Source: Pseudomonadota bacterium (GTDB lineage: Bacteria; Pseudomonadota; Alphaproteobacteria; Acetobacterales; Acetobacteraceae). Taken from it: a stretch of DNA of 64,000 bases. Positions 5,546 to 11,465 of the stretch are shown one piece after another; positions within the stretch are counted from its first letter, which is position 1; each line of letters begins with the position of its first letter. Both the position numbers and the translations under genes were made by a program. A model generated the notes under the pieces. That model ran no database searches. It was not told where the DNA came from and worked only from the letters and a program-made list of their open reading frames with translations. The stretch lies in the NCBI GenBank assembly GCA_021851785.1, contig JAJZBV010000005.1, forward strand, positions 1-64,000, in the 5' to 3' direction.

Positions 5546-5620
5546 TGGTGCTGCTGGTGAGGATTGAACTCACGGCCTCACCCTTACCAAGGGTGTGCTC
5601 TACCACTGAGCTACAGCAGC
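5546..5620 (-). tRNA. tRNA-Thr (anticodon GGU)
   Basis: On the minus strand a complete cloverleaf can be drawn. The acceptor stem is GCTGCTG/CAGCAGC, the D arm GCTC...GAGC, and the anticodon stem CACCC/GGGTG around loop TTGGTAA with anticodon GGT. The T arm is GTGAG-TTCAATC-CTCAC. The discriminator is A and the 3' CCA is encoded in the DNA. The length is 75 nt with CCA. Confidence 0.96.
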
Positions 5621-5966
5621 GCCGCCGATCCGGCCGTCTCCTAGACGCTTGCCGCCACCGGCGCAACCCTCCCGCGCGCGATGATCGCGATGGCAAGAAA
5701 GTGTGTCCCGCCGCCGGCACGGACGCGAAACGCGCAGCCGGCCGAGGGGCGCATCCTGAACGTGGGCGCTGCTCAGCGTATCTCCGATTCATAGTCATTT
5801 AGATTATCGTTGTAGACTTAAGCTAGATAAAGAAATTTACTTTTCCCGAATAAGTTGATATAGAGGCGCGCGCTGCAAGAGGCGCGAATCGCGCCGGGCC
5901 GGCGTACGGCTCAAGCCTGCATGCACCCCTGTCGGCACCCATCGGCAGCGGCGAATGGAGTTCGGG
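5621..5966. other. Intergenic region between tRNA-Thr and the Hint-repeat gene
   Basis: This 346-base gap holds no convincing gene. The first part has normal high GC. Positions about 5790-5870 are clearly AT-rich compared with the surroundings and contain the promoter-like pair listed separately. The upstream region of tRNA-Thr also lies here. Confidence 0.6.
5836..5864 (+). promoter_or_regulatory. Putative sigma70-type promoter of the Hint-repeat gene
   Basis: TTTACT at 5836-5841 and TATAGA at 5859-5864 are separated by 17 bases, within an AT-rich stretch. The start codon lies about 100 bases downstream. The assignment is from consensus similarity only. Confidence 0.5.
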
Positions 5967-8900
5967 ATGCCGGCCGGAACGAATGACGACTGGATCGGCG
6001 CGAGCGGCGCCTGGAGTGTCGCCGGAAATTGGAGCGGCGGGCCACCGGTTTCGGGTGACAACGCGGTTTTTAGCGCCGCGATCCCGATTTTCGTCACCTA
6101 CGCCACCAGCGACGCGATCGCCGCGCTCAGCGACGCGAGCGATCCCTACGCGACCCTCGATCTCGTCGGCGGCGCGCTCAGCCTCACCGGCGGCGCCTGG
6201 CTCGGCGGCTTCGATCAGGCCGCCGGCAGCCTCGCGCTCGGCGCCGGCACCCTCACGCTGGGCGGCCCGGCGACGCTGGCCGGCGCGATCAGCGGGCCGG
6301 GCGTGATCGACATCACCGGCACCGCCGAGGCGCTGAGCGGACTTGCCGTCAGCGGCGGCGCGACGCTCGATGTCAGCGGCCGGCTCGAGACCTCGGGCGC
6401 GGTCACCCTCGGCGCGGCGAGTTCGGACGCGAGCGCGATCAGCGTCAGTGGCGGCGACCAGTTCGTCATCGCCAACCCGACGACGCTCGCGGGCGAGGGC
6501 ACCGGCGGCCTCTTCAATCGCGGTCTGATCGAACAATTCACCAGCGGCACCAGCGACATCGCCGGCAATCTCACGAATAGCGGCACGCTCGCCGTCGCGC
6601 ATGGCATGCTCGGCCTTTATGGCGGGGCAAGCGCGCTTGCCGGGACGATCAGCGGCGGCGGCGCGCTGGCGATGTTCGGCGGCGCCCAAGTCGCGGTCGG
6701 CGCCGGCGCCGTCGTCACCATCGCCACCTTGGAGGCGCTCAATGCCGGCACCACCCTGACCCTCGATGGCGGGCTCGGCTATGGCGGCGATTTCACCCTC
6801 GGGCCGGGCAGCGGCCTCGCCTTCGCGACCCCGAACGAGACCCTGACGCTTTCGGGCGCGGCCAGCCTCGGCGGGGTGGTCGCCGGCGCGAGTGCGTCGG
6901 CCGCCGACATCGTCAGCATCACCGGCGCCGGCGATCTCAATGGCCTGATCCTGAGCGACGCGACCCTCGCCGACGCCGCGAGCGTCACCATGGACGGGCC
7001 GATGACGCTGGAGGGCGGCGGCAAGATCGCCATCGCCGCCGGGGCGAATTTCACTATTCTCACCGACGCCGCGATCGGCGCCGCCGCCGGCCTGGGCGCG
7101 ATCAGCAATGCCGGCGATTTCGCGAAAACCGGCGGCGATGGCACCAGCTACGTCACCGCCACCTTCAGCAATACCGGCACCCTCGCCGCCGACGCCGGAA
7201 CCCTCGCGCTCGAAGGCGGCGCCGGCAGCCTCGGCGGCGCGCTCGAAGGCGCCGGCACGCTGCTTCTCGCCGGCGGCGGCAGCTTCACCCTCGATAGCGG
7301 CGTCGTCGTCACCGTCGCCGACCTCGCGGTGAGCGGCGCCGGCAGCGAACTCACCCTCGCGACCTCGCTCGCCGATGCCGGCGGTTTTTCCCTCGGACAG
7401 GGGACGACGATCGCGCTCGGCGGCGAAAGCCTGACCCTCGCGGGCAGCCAGATCGCGCTCGATGGCACCCTCGCCGGGCCGGGCACGCTGACGCTTGCGG
7501 GGAGCGCCGACCTTTCCGGCCTGGTCGCCGAAGGAGGCGCGACTCTCGCGGTTTCCGGCGCCGCTGCCGCCGACGGTCCGCTCACCCTCGGCACCGCGAG
7601 CGGCGGGACCGAGCTTCTCGTCGGTGCCGGCGGCTCGCTCACCATCGATGCCGCGGCGCTGATTTCGGGTTCCGGCACGCTGGTCAATGACGGCGTGATC
7701 ACCGCCTGGAACGGCCTCGGCGCCGCCACCATCGCCGCGGCGCTGGTCAATCAGGGCACGCTCGCGCTCGAAGCCGGCACACTCGATCTCACCGGGGCGG
7801 TCAGCAATAGCGGCGAAATTTCGATTGGTGACGGCGCGCTCTCGGTCGCCGGCGGGCTCGCCGGCGGCGGCACGCTGAGCCTCGGCGCCGGGGCCTCCGC
7901 CATCCTCGGCGGCGCGGCGGCGGGGACGATCCATTTCGCCGCCGCCGGCGCCGCCCTCACCCTCGACGCCCTGGCGTCCGTCGCCGCGACGATCTCCGGC
8001 TTCGCCGCCGGCGACACCATCGACCTCGCCAATGTCCAGGCCAACGGATTTTCCTATGGCGGCGGCACGCTGACTCTGACCGACGCCAGCGATGGCGGGC
8101 CGGCGAGCGTGGTCGGCGCGCTCGCTCTGCCGGGGCTTGGCTCGTCTCCCGCGCTCGCCCTCGCCAATGATGGCGCGAACGGCACCGAGATCCTGCTCGC
8201 GCCGGCATCACCGGTGTTCAGCACCCCCTCGGCGGCGATCACGCTCGATAGCTGGAATTGGTCGAGCGGCTGGGCGACCCCGCCCGGAAGCACCGACGAC
8301 GCGATCATTCCCAATGACGGCAGCACCGCCGAGACCATCACCTTCGTCAACAATACCACCGTCGCGGCACTCGCCGGCGGCGATCTGGTGACGCTGCTGC
8401 TCCACGCCGGCACGCTTGCCGTCGATAGCGGTCTCTCCTGGAACGGCGCCCTCACGGTCGATGGCGGCGCGCTCGATCTCCTCTCCGGCGGCACCATCGC
8501 AGGCTCGTTCTCGCTCGCCGCCGGCGATTCCGTGGCACTCGGCGCCAACGTCTTGCAGCTTGGCAGCGCCGACATCGCCGGCACCATCAGCGGCGGCGGC
8601 ACCCTCGATTTCGCGTCGGGCGGGGGCACCATCGCCGCCGGCGCCGCGATCACCACCGGCGGTATCGACATCGCCGATGCGCTGACGCTGCAAACCCCGC
8701 TCGCCTATTCCGGCGATTTCTCCCTCGCCGCCGCCGGCCAGCTCGCGCTCGGCGGCGAGACGCCGACCCTGAGCGGCGAGGCGACGCTCGCCGGCACGCT
8801 CACCGGGGCGGGCAGCCTGATCGTCACCGGCACCGGCGACCTCGCGGGGGCCATCATCGGCGGCGATGCCAGCCTGATCGATAGCGGTACCCTGTTCGAT

Positions 8901-11465
8901 GGCGGCGCGATCACGCTGGGCGCCGGCGGCGCCGGCGATCTCTCGATCACCGCAGGCGCATTGTTCGACAGCCTCGGCGACAATGCCATCGCCGCCGGCG
9001 CCACCGCCGAGATCACCAATGCCGGGATTTTCGAGAAAACCGGCGGCGCCGGGGTCGCGACGATCGCCGCGCCGATCACCAGCACCGGCACCATTCTCGC
9101 CGCCGATGGCGCGCTCCTGTTTACCGGCGCCGGGAGTTTCGCCGGCGAACTCGGCGGCGCCGGCACCATCGCGCTCGCCGGCAACGCGACGCTGGGGAGC
9201 GGGCTTTCCATCACCGCCGGCGCCTTCGCGCTGGACAACGGCGCCGTGGCGACGCTCGCCGGCGCGCTCGATCTCGCCGATAAATTCATCCTCGCCGCCG
9301 GTGCGACGCTCGCCAATGGGAGTGCGGCGCTGACCCTGGCCGGCAACGCGACGCTGGATGGAACGGTGAGCGGTGCCGGCACCATCGCCGTCACCGGCAG
9401 CGCCATCGCCGACGGCCTCGCCATCAGCGGCTCCGAGACCGTCGATCTCTCCGGCACCATCACCCAGGACGGCAATATCGAACTCGGCGCCGGGATCAAC
9501 GATTCTCCGCTGCTCGATATCCAGTCGGGCGGCGTCTTCGCGATCAATGCCGACGCCAATATCAACACCGCCGGCACCGACGCCATCGACAATGCCGGAT
9601 TGCTCGAAAAAACCGCCGGCAACGGCATCAGCTACCTCTATGGCAATCTCAGCAATACCGGCACCATCGCGGTCCAGCGCGGCACGCTCTCGCTCGCCGC
9701 CGGGGCGGCGACGCTGGGCGGCACGCTTGCCGGCGCCGGAACGCTGGCGCTTACCGCCGGCGCGGCGGCGACCAGTGGCAACGCGATCAGCTTCTACACG
9801 CTGACGCCCGGCGTCGCGCTCTCCGTCACCGGACTCGGCGTTCTCGGCGCCGCCGAACTCGTCGCCGCCGCCGGCGGCGGCTATGCCGGCGATTTCACGC
9901 TCGCCGGCGGCGGCACCTTGGCCCCGGACGGCGCCGTTTTCACCCTCTCCGGCGCCGCCTCGCTCGACGGCGCGATCAGCGGCGCCGGCACCGTCGCCGT
10001 CAGCGGCCAAGCCGAAGCGAGCGGGCTCGCCGTCTCGGGCGGCGCGGTGCTCAGCGACACCGGCACAATGCTGCTCGACGGCGCCGCCTCGATCGGGAGC
10101 GCGAGCAGCACCGGCCAGATCGTCGTCGCCTCGGCGGGGACGCTCGAGATCACCGCCGATGCCGCGCTCACCGGCTATAACGCGAATGCCATCAGCAATG
10201 CCGGCGTGGTCGAAAAACTCGCCGGGATCGGGGCCAGCACGCTCTCCGGCGGCATCACCAATACCGGAACGGTGCTCGCGGCGAGCGGCACCATCGACAT
10301 CACCGGGACGCTCACCAACAACGCGCTGATCGAGGCGGCGGGCGGGACCATCGTTCTCGCCAACGCCATGGCCGCGAGCGGCGGCACGAGCGGCTTGGCC
10401 ACGATCGGCGCCGGCGGCGGGCTGGTGCTCGATGGCGCCCTCGCCGGCTCGCAAGGCATCGATTTCACCGCCGCCTCCGGCGTGCTCGCCCTCGCCGATC
10501 CGGGGCAGTTCTTCGGCACCATCGAGGGGTTCGCGAGCGGCGATGTCATCGATCTCACCACCGCCGGCTTCACTCCCGGCGCGGATACGCTGACCTATGG
10601 CAACCACATGCTGAGCCTCAGCGACGCCGGCACGCCGATCGCCGCCCTCGCCATGCCCGGCACCTATGCGGCGAGCGCTTTCCAGCTCTCCAGCGACGGC
10701 GCGAGCGGCACCGATATCACCCTCACGCTACCCTGCTTCGCCGCCGGCACGCGCATCGAAACGCCCGCCGGCGCGGTCGCGGTCGAGGCGTTGGCGGTCG
10801 GGGAGGCGGTTTCGCTCGCGCGCGGGGGGAGCGCGCGGATCATCTGGATCGGCTGGCGCGACATCGATTGCCTGCGCCATAAATATCCGGCGCGCGAGCG
10901 CCCGATCCGCATCGCCGCCCATGCGTTTGCCGATGGCGTGCCGCGGCGCGATATCGTGCTCTCGCCCGATCACGCGGTGTTCGTCGACGGCGTGCTGGTC
11001 CCGGTCAAATTCCTCGTCAACGGCAGCACCATCCGTGAGGAGCCGGTGGCACGGGTGCGCTATTTCCATATCGAACTCGCCGGCCATGACGTGCTGCTGA
11101 GCGAGGGGCTGGCGGTGGAGAGCTATCTCGATACCGGCAACCGCGGTGATTTCGTCAATGCGCGCGAGGCACCGGTGAATGGCGCGCGCGGGGCGGCGGC
11201 ACGCTGCGCGCCGCTCTGCCGATCGGGGAAAAAACTCGCCGCGATCCACGGCCGCCTCGCCCGCCGGGCGCTGGCCGCTCAGCCCGGCAAAACCTCGACG
11301 AAGCTGAGTCCGGCGGCGAGGACTGCGCGCAAATCCGGCAAAGCGAGCGCGATGCAGCCGGCGGTCGGCGCGAAATCCACAGTTGCGACATGGAGGAAAA
11401 TCGCCGAGCCGCGTCCCGGGCGCGGTGGATCATCGTTCCAGCCGAGCACACCGATGATGTCATAG
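5967..11465 (+). CDS. Giant beta-strand-repeat protein with C-terminal Hint domain
   Basis: The protein has 1832 residues. Residues 1-1589 are a low-complexity Gly/Ala/Ser/Thr-rich passenger made of strand-turn repeats such as LSGAASLDGAISGAGTV and NAGVVEKLAG, as in beta-helical adhesins. There are two large modules (about 1-745 and 750-1589). From Cys1590 (PCFAAGTRIETPAG) a Hint domain of the bacterial Hint_2 type follows, with VEALAVGEAVS, IIWIGWRDID, IVLSPDHAVFVDG, VRYFHIEL and ESYLDTGNRGDF. Hint domains can self-cleave peptide bonds; function and partners here are unknown. No signal peptide or autotransporter barrel is visible. ATG 5967 follows TGGAG by 6 bases; ATG 5955 is an alternative. 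The last 62 codons overlap the convergent L,D-transpeptidase gene. Confidence 0.85.
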   Translation: MPAGTNDDWIGASGAWSVAGNWSGGPPVSGDNAVFSAAIPIFVTYATSDAIAALSDASDPYATLDLVGGALSLTGGAWLGGFDQAAGSLALGAGTLTLGGPATLAGAISGPGVIDITGTAEALSGLAVSGGATLDVSGRLETSGAVTLGAASSDASAISVSGGDQFVIANPTTLAGEGTGGLFNRGLIEQFTSGTSDIAGNLTNSGTLAVAHGMLGLYGGASALAGTISGGGALAMFGGAQVAVGAGAVVTIATLEALNAGTTLTLDGGLGYGGDFTLGPGSGLAFATPNETLTLSGAASLGGVVAGASASAADIVSITGAGDLNGLILSDATLADAASVTMDGPMTLEGGGKIAIAAGANFTILTDAAIGAAAGLGAISNAGDFAKTGGDGTSYVTATFSNTGTLAADAGTLALEGGAGSLGGALEGAGTLLLAGGGSFTLDSGVVVTVADLAVSGAGSELTLATSLADAGGFSLGQGTTIALGGESLTLAGSQIALDGTLAGPGTLTLAGSADLSGLVAEGGATLAVSGAAAADGPLTLGTASGGTELLVGAGGSLTIDAAALISGSGTLVNDGVITAWNGLGAATIAAALVNQGTLALEAGTLDLTGAVSNSGEISIGDGALSVAGGLAGGGTLSLGAGASAILGGAAAGTIHFAAAGAALTLDALASVAATISGFAAGDTIDLANVQANGFSYGGGTLTLTDASDGGPASVVGALALPGLGSSPALALANDGANGTEILLAPASPVFSTPSAAITLDSWNWSSGWATPPGSTDDAIIPNDGSTAETITFVNNTTVAALAGGDLVTLLLHAGTLAVDSGLSWNGALTVDGGALDLLSGGTIAGSFSLAAGDSVALGANVLQLGSADIAGTISGGGTLDFASGGGTIAAGAAITTGGIDIADALTLQTPLAYSGDFSLAAAGQLALGGETPTLSGEATLAGTLTGAGSLIVTGTGDLAGAIIGGDASLIDSGTLFDGGAITLGAGGAGDLSITAGALFDSLGDNAIAAGATAEITNAGIFEKTGGAGVATIAAPITSTGTILAADGALLFTGAGSFAGELGGAGTIALAGNATLGSGLSITAGAFALDNGAVATLAGALDLADKFILAAGATLANGSAALTLAGNATLDGTVSGAGTIAVTGSAIADGLAISGSETVDLSGTITQDGNIELGAGINDSPLLDIQSGGVFAINADANINTAGTDAIDNAGLLEKTAGNGISYLYGNLSNTGTIAVQRGTLSLAAGAATLGGTLAGAGTLALTAGAAATSGNAISFYTLTPGVALSVTGLGVLGAAELVAAAGGGYAGDFTLAGGGTLAPDGAVFTLSGAASLDGAISGAGTVAVSGQAEASGLAVSGGAVLSDTGTMLLDGAASIGSASSTGQIVVASAGTLEITADAALTGYNANAISNAGVVEKLAGIGASTLSGGITNTGTVLAASGTIDITGTLTNNALIEAAGGTIVLANAMAASGGTSGLATIGAGGGLVLDGALAGSQGIDFTAASGVLALADPGQFFGTIEGFASGDVIDLTTAGFTPGADTLTYGNHMLSLSDAGTPIAALAMPGTYAASAFQLSSDGASGTDITLTLPCFAAGTRIETPAGAVAVEALAVGEAVSLARGGSARIIWIGWRDIDCLRHKYPARERPIRIAAHAFADGVPRRDIVLSPDHAVFVDGVLVPVKFLVNGSTIREEPVARVRYFHIELAGHDVLLSEGLAVESYLDTGNRGDFVNAREAPVNGARGAAARCAPLCRSGKKLAAIHGRLARRALAAQPGKTSTKLSPAARTARKSGKASAMQPAVGAKSTVATWRKIAEPRPGRGGSSFQPSTPMMS

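Follow-up and report, generated by a model that had tools for sequence, protein, structure and literature searches.

A stretch of 64,000 nucleotides (the window) carries a giant gene (5967..11465, + strand) whose protein of 1,832 residues consists of a passenger of 1,589 residues of beta-helix-type repeats, a Hint_2 domain opening at Cys1590 and a conserved tail. The gene was delimited, the fold modelled and the conserved residues counted by computation: the protein has no recognisable secretion signal, its Hint domain lacks the terminal His-Asn of inteins, and the same Hint tail is carried by many other passengers. We favour, tentatively and at somewhat below an even chance, the reading that this is a type I-secreted beta-helix protein with an intact self-cleaving Hint_2 domain that releases the passenger. 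Taken separately, self-cleavage at Cys1590 is slightly favoured over its absence, and type I-like export is an evenly balanced proposition. The Hint_2 family is known (Pfam) and seemingly little studied, and the giant protein is a new member of it. The more interesting point is the pattern across the family, in which a Hint tail with Glu-Ser/Thr is attached to many proteins of extracellular type that have no recognisable signal.

The open reading frame has its upstream-most ATG at 5955 and a second in-frame ATG at 5967, the former adding four residues. The orthologous proteins start where ATG 5967 lies (their first residue aligns there, in M-x-x-x-x-D-D-W, with matches from residue 1), so ATG 5967, the start given in a first-pass annotation of the sequence, is the likelier one. 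Cys1 of the Hint domain is residue 1590 counted from 5967 and 1594 counted from 5955. GC content by codon position (0.67/0.60/0.87) shows that the gene codes. Orthologues are present in all five other same-genus genomes searched, with 57–83% identity to the first 531 residues (one of the five, at a contig end, matched over residues 378–531 only), and none was found in the remaining 24 of the 30 genomes searched. They keep the start and domain architecture of the giant protein, and two of their contigs belong to metagenome-assembled genomes. Judged from the loci that have names, the wider group of Hint_2 loci belongs to the Acetobacteraceae.

To the left of the giant gene lie ispD and a tRNA-Thr gene (5546–5620, minus strand); to the right, in opposite orientation, lie a ykuD-type L,D-transpeptidase gene and recR. 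By open reading frame coordinates, the giant gene runs at its 3' end into the end of the ykuD-type gene (minus strand), the two sharing 11279..11465. A manual comparison of the coordinates places the wobble positions of both genes on the same nucleotides there, and the pattern of variation therefore cannot tell which strand is under selection in the overlap. The overlapping tail of the giant gene is kept in four orthologues.

The first-pass annotation had described about 1,590 residues of beta-strand repeats; the 1,589 residues ahead of Cys1590 contain two related halves. Residues 77–744 align with residues 913–1586 at 38% identity (E = 2.8e-61), from which we drew a first module of about residues 1–790 (5967..8336, + strand; limit set by hand) and a second of about residues 791–1589 (8337..10733, + strand). 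We modelled the last 270 residues of the second module together with the Hint domain. These 270 residues were predicted as a beta-helix with moderate confidence (pLDDT 58–93 by blocks of ten), the fold for which the first-pass annotation had proposed a structure prediction, and they superpose on solved beta-helix adhesins. Model residues 4–268 match the A-domain of yeast Awp1 (7o9q; Z 20.8, 245 residues, 2.7 A) and the bacterial passengers of TibA (Z 13.8) and Ag43b (Z 13.2). The model thus supports a putative adhesin-like surface protein; a shared fold alone gives no function. The closest PDB-listed structures to the window beta-helix are A-domains of yeast cell-wall adhesins, and the fungal family Hyphal_reg_CWP also matches the passengers of 3 of 65 bacterial relatives. 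A sequence search of the PDB with the first 578 residues as the query returned nothing up to E 1. Close to the Hint domain, an IEGFASGDVI motif begins 71 residues before Cys1 (10521..10550, + strand); similar motifs precede the Hint domain in 21 of 80 aligned rows, where shuffled sequences would give 0.31.

Residues 1589–1723 (10731..11135, + strand; residues 1593–1727 when counted from 5955) match Hint_2 (PF13403) at 147.8 bits against a cut-off of 28.4, in agreement with the Hint_2-type domain that had been annotated at Cys1590. In the model, the Hint part reaches pLDDT values of 89–98 by blocks of ten and superposes on bacterial intein-like (BIL), Vint, Hedgehog and intein structures with Z 10.8–12.8 over 111–126 residues. 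The BIL structure 2lwy (Z 12.8, 116 aligned residues, 2.2 A) and Hedgehog 1at0 (Z 11.2, 114 aligned residues, 2.6 A) are among them. Cys1 (10734..10736, + strand; Cys271 of the model), the predicted nucleophile of an N-S acyl shift, is preceded by Pro1589 and opens the aligned range for many superposed entries, lying against residue 1 of several inteins and residue 258 of Hedgehog. For several inteins the range ends with Ser1719 (model Ser400) against chain residue 125 (gp41-1), 145 (MchDnaB-1) or 440 (RecA), which we take to be their terminal Asn; the title of the MchDnaB-1 entry, N145AA, also suggests this for residue 145. Glu1718-Ser1719 (11118..11123, + strand) thus stands where an intein has its terminal His-Asn. 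Because the aligned ranges fix end points only, residues lying between these were equated by motif; in this way S-P-D-H (residues 1666–1669; 10962..10973, + strand) was assigned as the counterpart of intein block-B T-x-x-H (block names as in the available portion of PMC4031507).

We surveyed these residues in Hint relatives with an HMM built from a hand-picked alignment (A1; 26 sequences from 32 rows, in which the window took the place of its own locus copy). Invariance of Cys1 in A1, and in two larger alignments described below (A3 and A4), arises partly from how the rows were extracted; the HMM survey, its model built from A1, applied no selection on Cys1. It yielded 61 rows, or 58 without three duplicates. 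Glu followed by Ser or Thr occupies the place of the intein His-Asn in 61 of 61 rows, and Cys1 is present in 54 of the 58 unique ones. The exceptions are a frame-broken paralogue from the same genome and, in a second bacterial family (f23, which by inference is probably the Rhodobacteraceae), three relatives in which Thr, Thr and Ala replace Cys1. In those three, two of which look like close kin, the block-B His is replaced as well (by Gln, Gln and Ala). Among the 54 rows with Cys1, the HMM alignment lacks the block-B His once, and there the letters still hold S-R-N-H, so that it is probably lost in none of them. A third His is near-invariant, like Cys1 and S-x-x-H, and the window domain retains further His residues.

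The three relatives that match the Hint profile while lacking both Cys1 and the block-B His (L150, L153 and L163) are natural inactive copies, and those in L150 and L153 adjoin seemingly active Hint copies. The genome of the window has four Hint_2 paralogues, among which the one at L037 6721–7803 (C26) appears broken at the start of the Hint domain, by a frame change or an assembly error.

The Hint domain of the giant protein has dN/dS values of 0.27, 0.31 and 0.40 against three orthologues, which indicates purifying selection; the passenger gives 0.36, 0.35 and 0.51 against the same three. The first-pass annotation had named a degenerate Hint domain as the case that would overturn it. Judging from its residues, the domain does not look degenerate: almost every relative surveyed retains the active-site residues, and the three in which Cys1 is replaced have lost the block-B His too. 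The same observations bear on the idea that the Hint fold is a stable C-terminal module for recognition or export that cleaves seldom or never in the cell. Such a module would sit well with the few relatives that keep the domain though its catalytic residues are gone, and with Pro immediately before Cys1 in 37 of 80 rows, the window protein included. Against it stand the near-invariance of Cys1, S-x-x-H and the third His, the joint loss of Cys1 with the block-B His and the sharp constraint at the −1 position, and we consider it unlikely.

The −1 constraint was counted over 78 relatives, that is, the 80 rows of A3 minus two orthologues. Pro or Ala precedes Cys1 in 70 of them, where 17% would be expected from the upstream composition, and variability rises to background by position −3. 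A scissile bond under selection would give such a pattern; structural constraint beside the fold, together with sequence kinship, could contribute. In inteins, Pro at −1 is a poor residue for N-terminal cleavage. For our preferred reading, then, the Pro at −1 argues against one part, as do the missing operon links and a fragmented HlyB in one genome (below) against others.

That reading runs as follows. The giant protein would be a beta-helix adhesin-like surface protein whose export bypasses Sec and probably uses a type I machine, with Hint_2 as an intact, single-turnover self-processing domain on the C-terminal side of the passenger. The peptide bond between Pro1589 and Cys1590 would become a thioester by an N-S acyl shift, a first step that stays plausible. 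An outside nucleophile, most simply water, would then break the thioester and release the passenger from the Hint domain and tail after export. We infer the type I route, the cleavage, its timing and the acyl acceptor alike. Hint_2 would neither splice nor cut on its own C-terminal side, because the His-Asn needed for this is replaced by Glu-Ser/Thr throughout the family; ordinary splicing with C-terminal cleavage is unlikely for the Hint domain of the giant protein.

What follows the Hint domain was examined in the two larger alignments. A3 has 80 rows (87 rows and the window, minus nine and L109, plus the orthologue copies L065 and L066) and A4 has 52 (57 rows minus six, plus one from L088); the invariance of ES, L, D, G and R in both is partly by construction, through the pattern used to fetch the rows. 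The tail (11136..11462, + strand) consists of a CAPL region with a predicted helix, followed by a low-confidence extension. The CAPL motif and the helix (model residues 436–452), which come after ESYLDTGNR, are common to the relatives, and the Cys of the motif (Cys1747; 11205..11207, + strand) is present in 72 of 80 rows. Many relatives (57 of 87 rows have more than 150 residues left from ES onwards) go on into an additional domain in which a WRWTDG motif is frequent. This domain, of about 130 residues in L088 10034–11095 and other long relatives, matched nothing in Pfam or NCBIfam in the two examples scanned, and that of one long relative was modelled confidently (residues 201–320 at pLDDT 90–98). 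The window protein and its orthologues are without it; their frame runs on against ykuD on the other strand. The first-pass annotation was right that the C-terminus after ESYLDTGNR is unlike an intein C-extein; the segment is a tail kept across the family rather than a peculiarity of this gene.

A tail conserved in place and motif also speaks for Hedgehog-like ligation. In this reading a molecule of the envelope would attack the Cys1590 thioester through an amine or a hydroxyl group, so that the passenger becomes covalently anchored by its new C-terminus, with the tail recognising the acceptor. The available portion of PMC2362128 describes a region for sterol or adduct recognition behind the Hint domain in Hedgehog and its nematode relatives, and Hint_2 sits behind domains that NCBI names choice-of-anchor. 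Against this, the tails differ between the two bacterial families, and a hopanoid can be rejected as the general acceptor. A hopene cyclase match is missing from at least 13 of 156 Hint-positive genomes (a lower bound, since the comparison with the Hint-positive list covered 20 of the 24 genomes that lack such a match), including genomes that are 99–100% complete and have 4–8 Hint_2 matches, and neither of the two f23 genomes tested gave one. We regard ligation of this kind as having a minor chance. A related reading, in which Hint_2 is a one-piece, self-processing C-terminal sorting tag for surface proteins without signal peptides that couples type I-like export and the Cys1 thioester to a hand-over of the passenger's new C-terminus to an envelope acceptor by Glu-Ser/Thr and the tail, is rather speculative and quite unlikely.

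The composition of the region behind the Hint domain also bears on a polymorphic-toxin arrangement, in which Hint would free a C-terminal toxin. Other HINT domains have been proposed to act so, according to the part of PMC3482391 available. In the relatives aligned, the post-Hint segment consists of a conserved tail, either by itself or followed by a single recurring domain, rather than a series of changing cassettes, and no toxin domain was matched in the three proteins scanned (P0001, P0002 and P0003), so that we give this arrangement hardly any credence.

We return to release of the passenger after type I-like export, and to the evidence on the route. The first-pass annotation had seen neither a signal peptide nor a C-terminal barrel, and both observations hold. 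By a crude score (threshold 2.0), one relative among the 76 with an uncut 5' end starts like a signal peptide, and no Sec signal was recognisable in the window protein. The score is a weak test: three controls, exported proteins chosen by eye, reach 2.61, 2.01 and 1.99, so that one is missed at this threshold. Searches of Pfam and NCBIfam with the window passenger revealed no autotransporter barrel and no other family up to E 1, Hint_2 being the only Pfam match in the window protein at that limit, and no RTX match was found. A Sec-dependent route, in which the signal was overlooked and the protein is an autotransporter or is secreted by a two-partner system, would fit the resemblance of the beta-helix to the passengers of TibA and Ag43, the AIDA matches in 3 of 65 passengers and, at 7 of 90 loci, a cluster of TPR/GT9-like proteins (one example scanned). 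With no barrel, next to no signal-like starts and the same module placed behind serralysin and RTX arrays, we judge it improbable.

TPR proteins recur near some Hint_2 genes in two clusters, at 7 and 6 of 90 loci (L073, L075, L078, L083, L087, L103, L113 and L116). One example of each cluster was scanned, giving a heptosyltransferase-like (GT9) domain and a sulfotransferase domain.

As to the type I or type V partner that the first-pass annotation proposed to look for, the genome of the window has an HlyB/HlyD-like pair, and no type I genes were seen among the neighbours of the giant gene. In this pair, an HlyD-like gene over its cut-off adjoins an HlyB-like gene (573 bits, below the cut-off of 726). 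The pair lies at L064 3808–9570 (C19) and is followed by a repeat protein that looks Sel1-like by eye. HlyB of this type occurs at 2 of 80 loci, with other genes in between (flanks of at most 10 kb, often shorter). No conserved operon partner of Hint_2 genes was found at the loci compared, where the largest clusters of neighbours look by eye like open reading frames antisense to the Hint genes. HlyD matches are present in 200 of 200 genomes of the bacterial family, so the presence of type I genes does not discriminate. The single-contig genome G126 has 12 Hint_2 matches, an HlyB-like match in two pieces (C1:67869–69781), a best HlyD match of 1e-34 and no PrtD match at 1e-60.

Hint_2 matches occur in 156 of 200 genomes of the same bacterial family, often several per genome. 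Over the class, 7 of 240 genomes exceed the cut-off, three of them from this family. The idea that Hint_2 replaces the exosortase system was not supported: exosortase was found in 56 of the 156 Hint-positive genomes and in 19 of 44 Hint-negative ones.

To see what the tail is attached to, we scanned the passengers of 65 of 93 Hint open reading frames with Pfam and NCBIfam, the others having been dropped by length limits, as duplicates or, in three cases, for a Cys pattern that did not fit. Adhesin families comprise AIDA (three passengers) and the fungal-type Hyphal_reg_CWP (three). GDSL lipases and RTX were each matched twice, and serralysin (M10/M10_C), subtilase, trypsin-like, GH17, GH64 and GH113 domains once each. 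Further matches are to choice-of-anchor L, ELWxxDGT repeats and cadherin- and Ig-like domains; many passengers match nothing, and a few matches are weak and without clear meaning. Most of the recognised kinds would be expected to work outside the cytoplasm. Type I secretion is the textbook route of serralysin and RTX proteins, and in the serralysin relative the Hint domain follows in the same frame. In the second family, f23, 4 of 23 Hint_2 rows carry at least seven RTX motifs. Hint (PF13403) and RTX domains are over-represented in fast-responding Rhodobacteraceae, according to the available text of PMC12487129.

A literature search on Hint domains in the Acetobacteraceae, Rhodobacter, secretion and RTX, in which subscription papers mostly fell outside coverage, returned no account of Hint_2 function. 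If Hint_2 releases or anchors such diverse extracellular enzymes and adhesins, it would give surface proteins exported without Sec a self-contained step of maturation, and members with short passengers and an intact-looking active site would offer ready-made material for the long-open question of what stand-alone bacterial Hint domains do. The sorting-tag reading, if true, would make it a bacterial, Hedgehog-like counterpart of sortase and exosortase anchoring, used by two alphaproteobacterial families whose genomes hold from several to many copies.

Compared with known systems, the giant protein belongs to the Hint_2 family (PF13403) and differs from it in nothing fundamental; its passenger is of beta-helix type, duplicated and very long, and it is without the extra C-terminal domain that many relatives have. 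RTX repeats and linked ABC/MFP genes are common, not obligatory, in type I substrates. Like RTX and serralysin proteins, the giant protein has no recognisable signal peptide, and some of its relatives carry serralysin or RTX segments before the Hint domain; unlike them, the window protein is without RTX and has a Hint module at its C-terminal end. From autotransporters it differs in having no C-terminal beta-barrel. With the HINT peptidases of polymorphic toxins it shares the proposed self-processing of a large exported protein by Hint, without a toxin cassette behind the domain; the routes given for those toxins in the portion of PMC3482391 available are T2SS, T5SS, T7SS and TcdB/TcaC, with type I not in that list.

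Within the Hint superfamily, the giant protein has both Cys1 and the block-B T/S-x-x-H (C, S and H), and it departs from inteins in that Glu-Ser replaces the C-terminal His-Asn. With the Hedgehog autoprocessing domain it shares the fold (1at0, Z 11.2), Cys1, the C-terminal place and a segment behind the Hint domain; its conserved tail lies where Hedgehog has its region for sterol or adduct recognition. BIL domains, type B especially, come nearer, with the same fold (2lwy, Z 12.8), Cys1 and no His-Asn; type B BILs were reportedly first described from Rhodobacter. In the available portion of PMC4031507, type A is defined with a C-terminal His-Asn, which the giant protein lacks, and type B domains, which have no block G, cleave without splicing. 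The Hint domain of the giant protein likewise has no intein-like block G. It is distinguished from BILs by Glu-Ser/Thr at this place (61 of 61 rows) and by its position near the end of a large passenger. Going by the published description, the behaviour of type B BILs comes closest.
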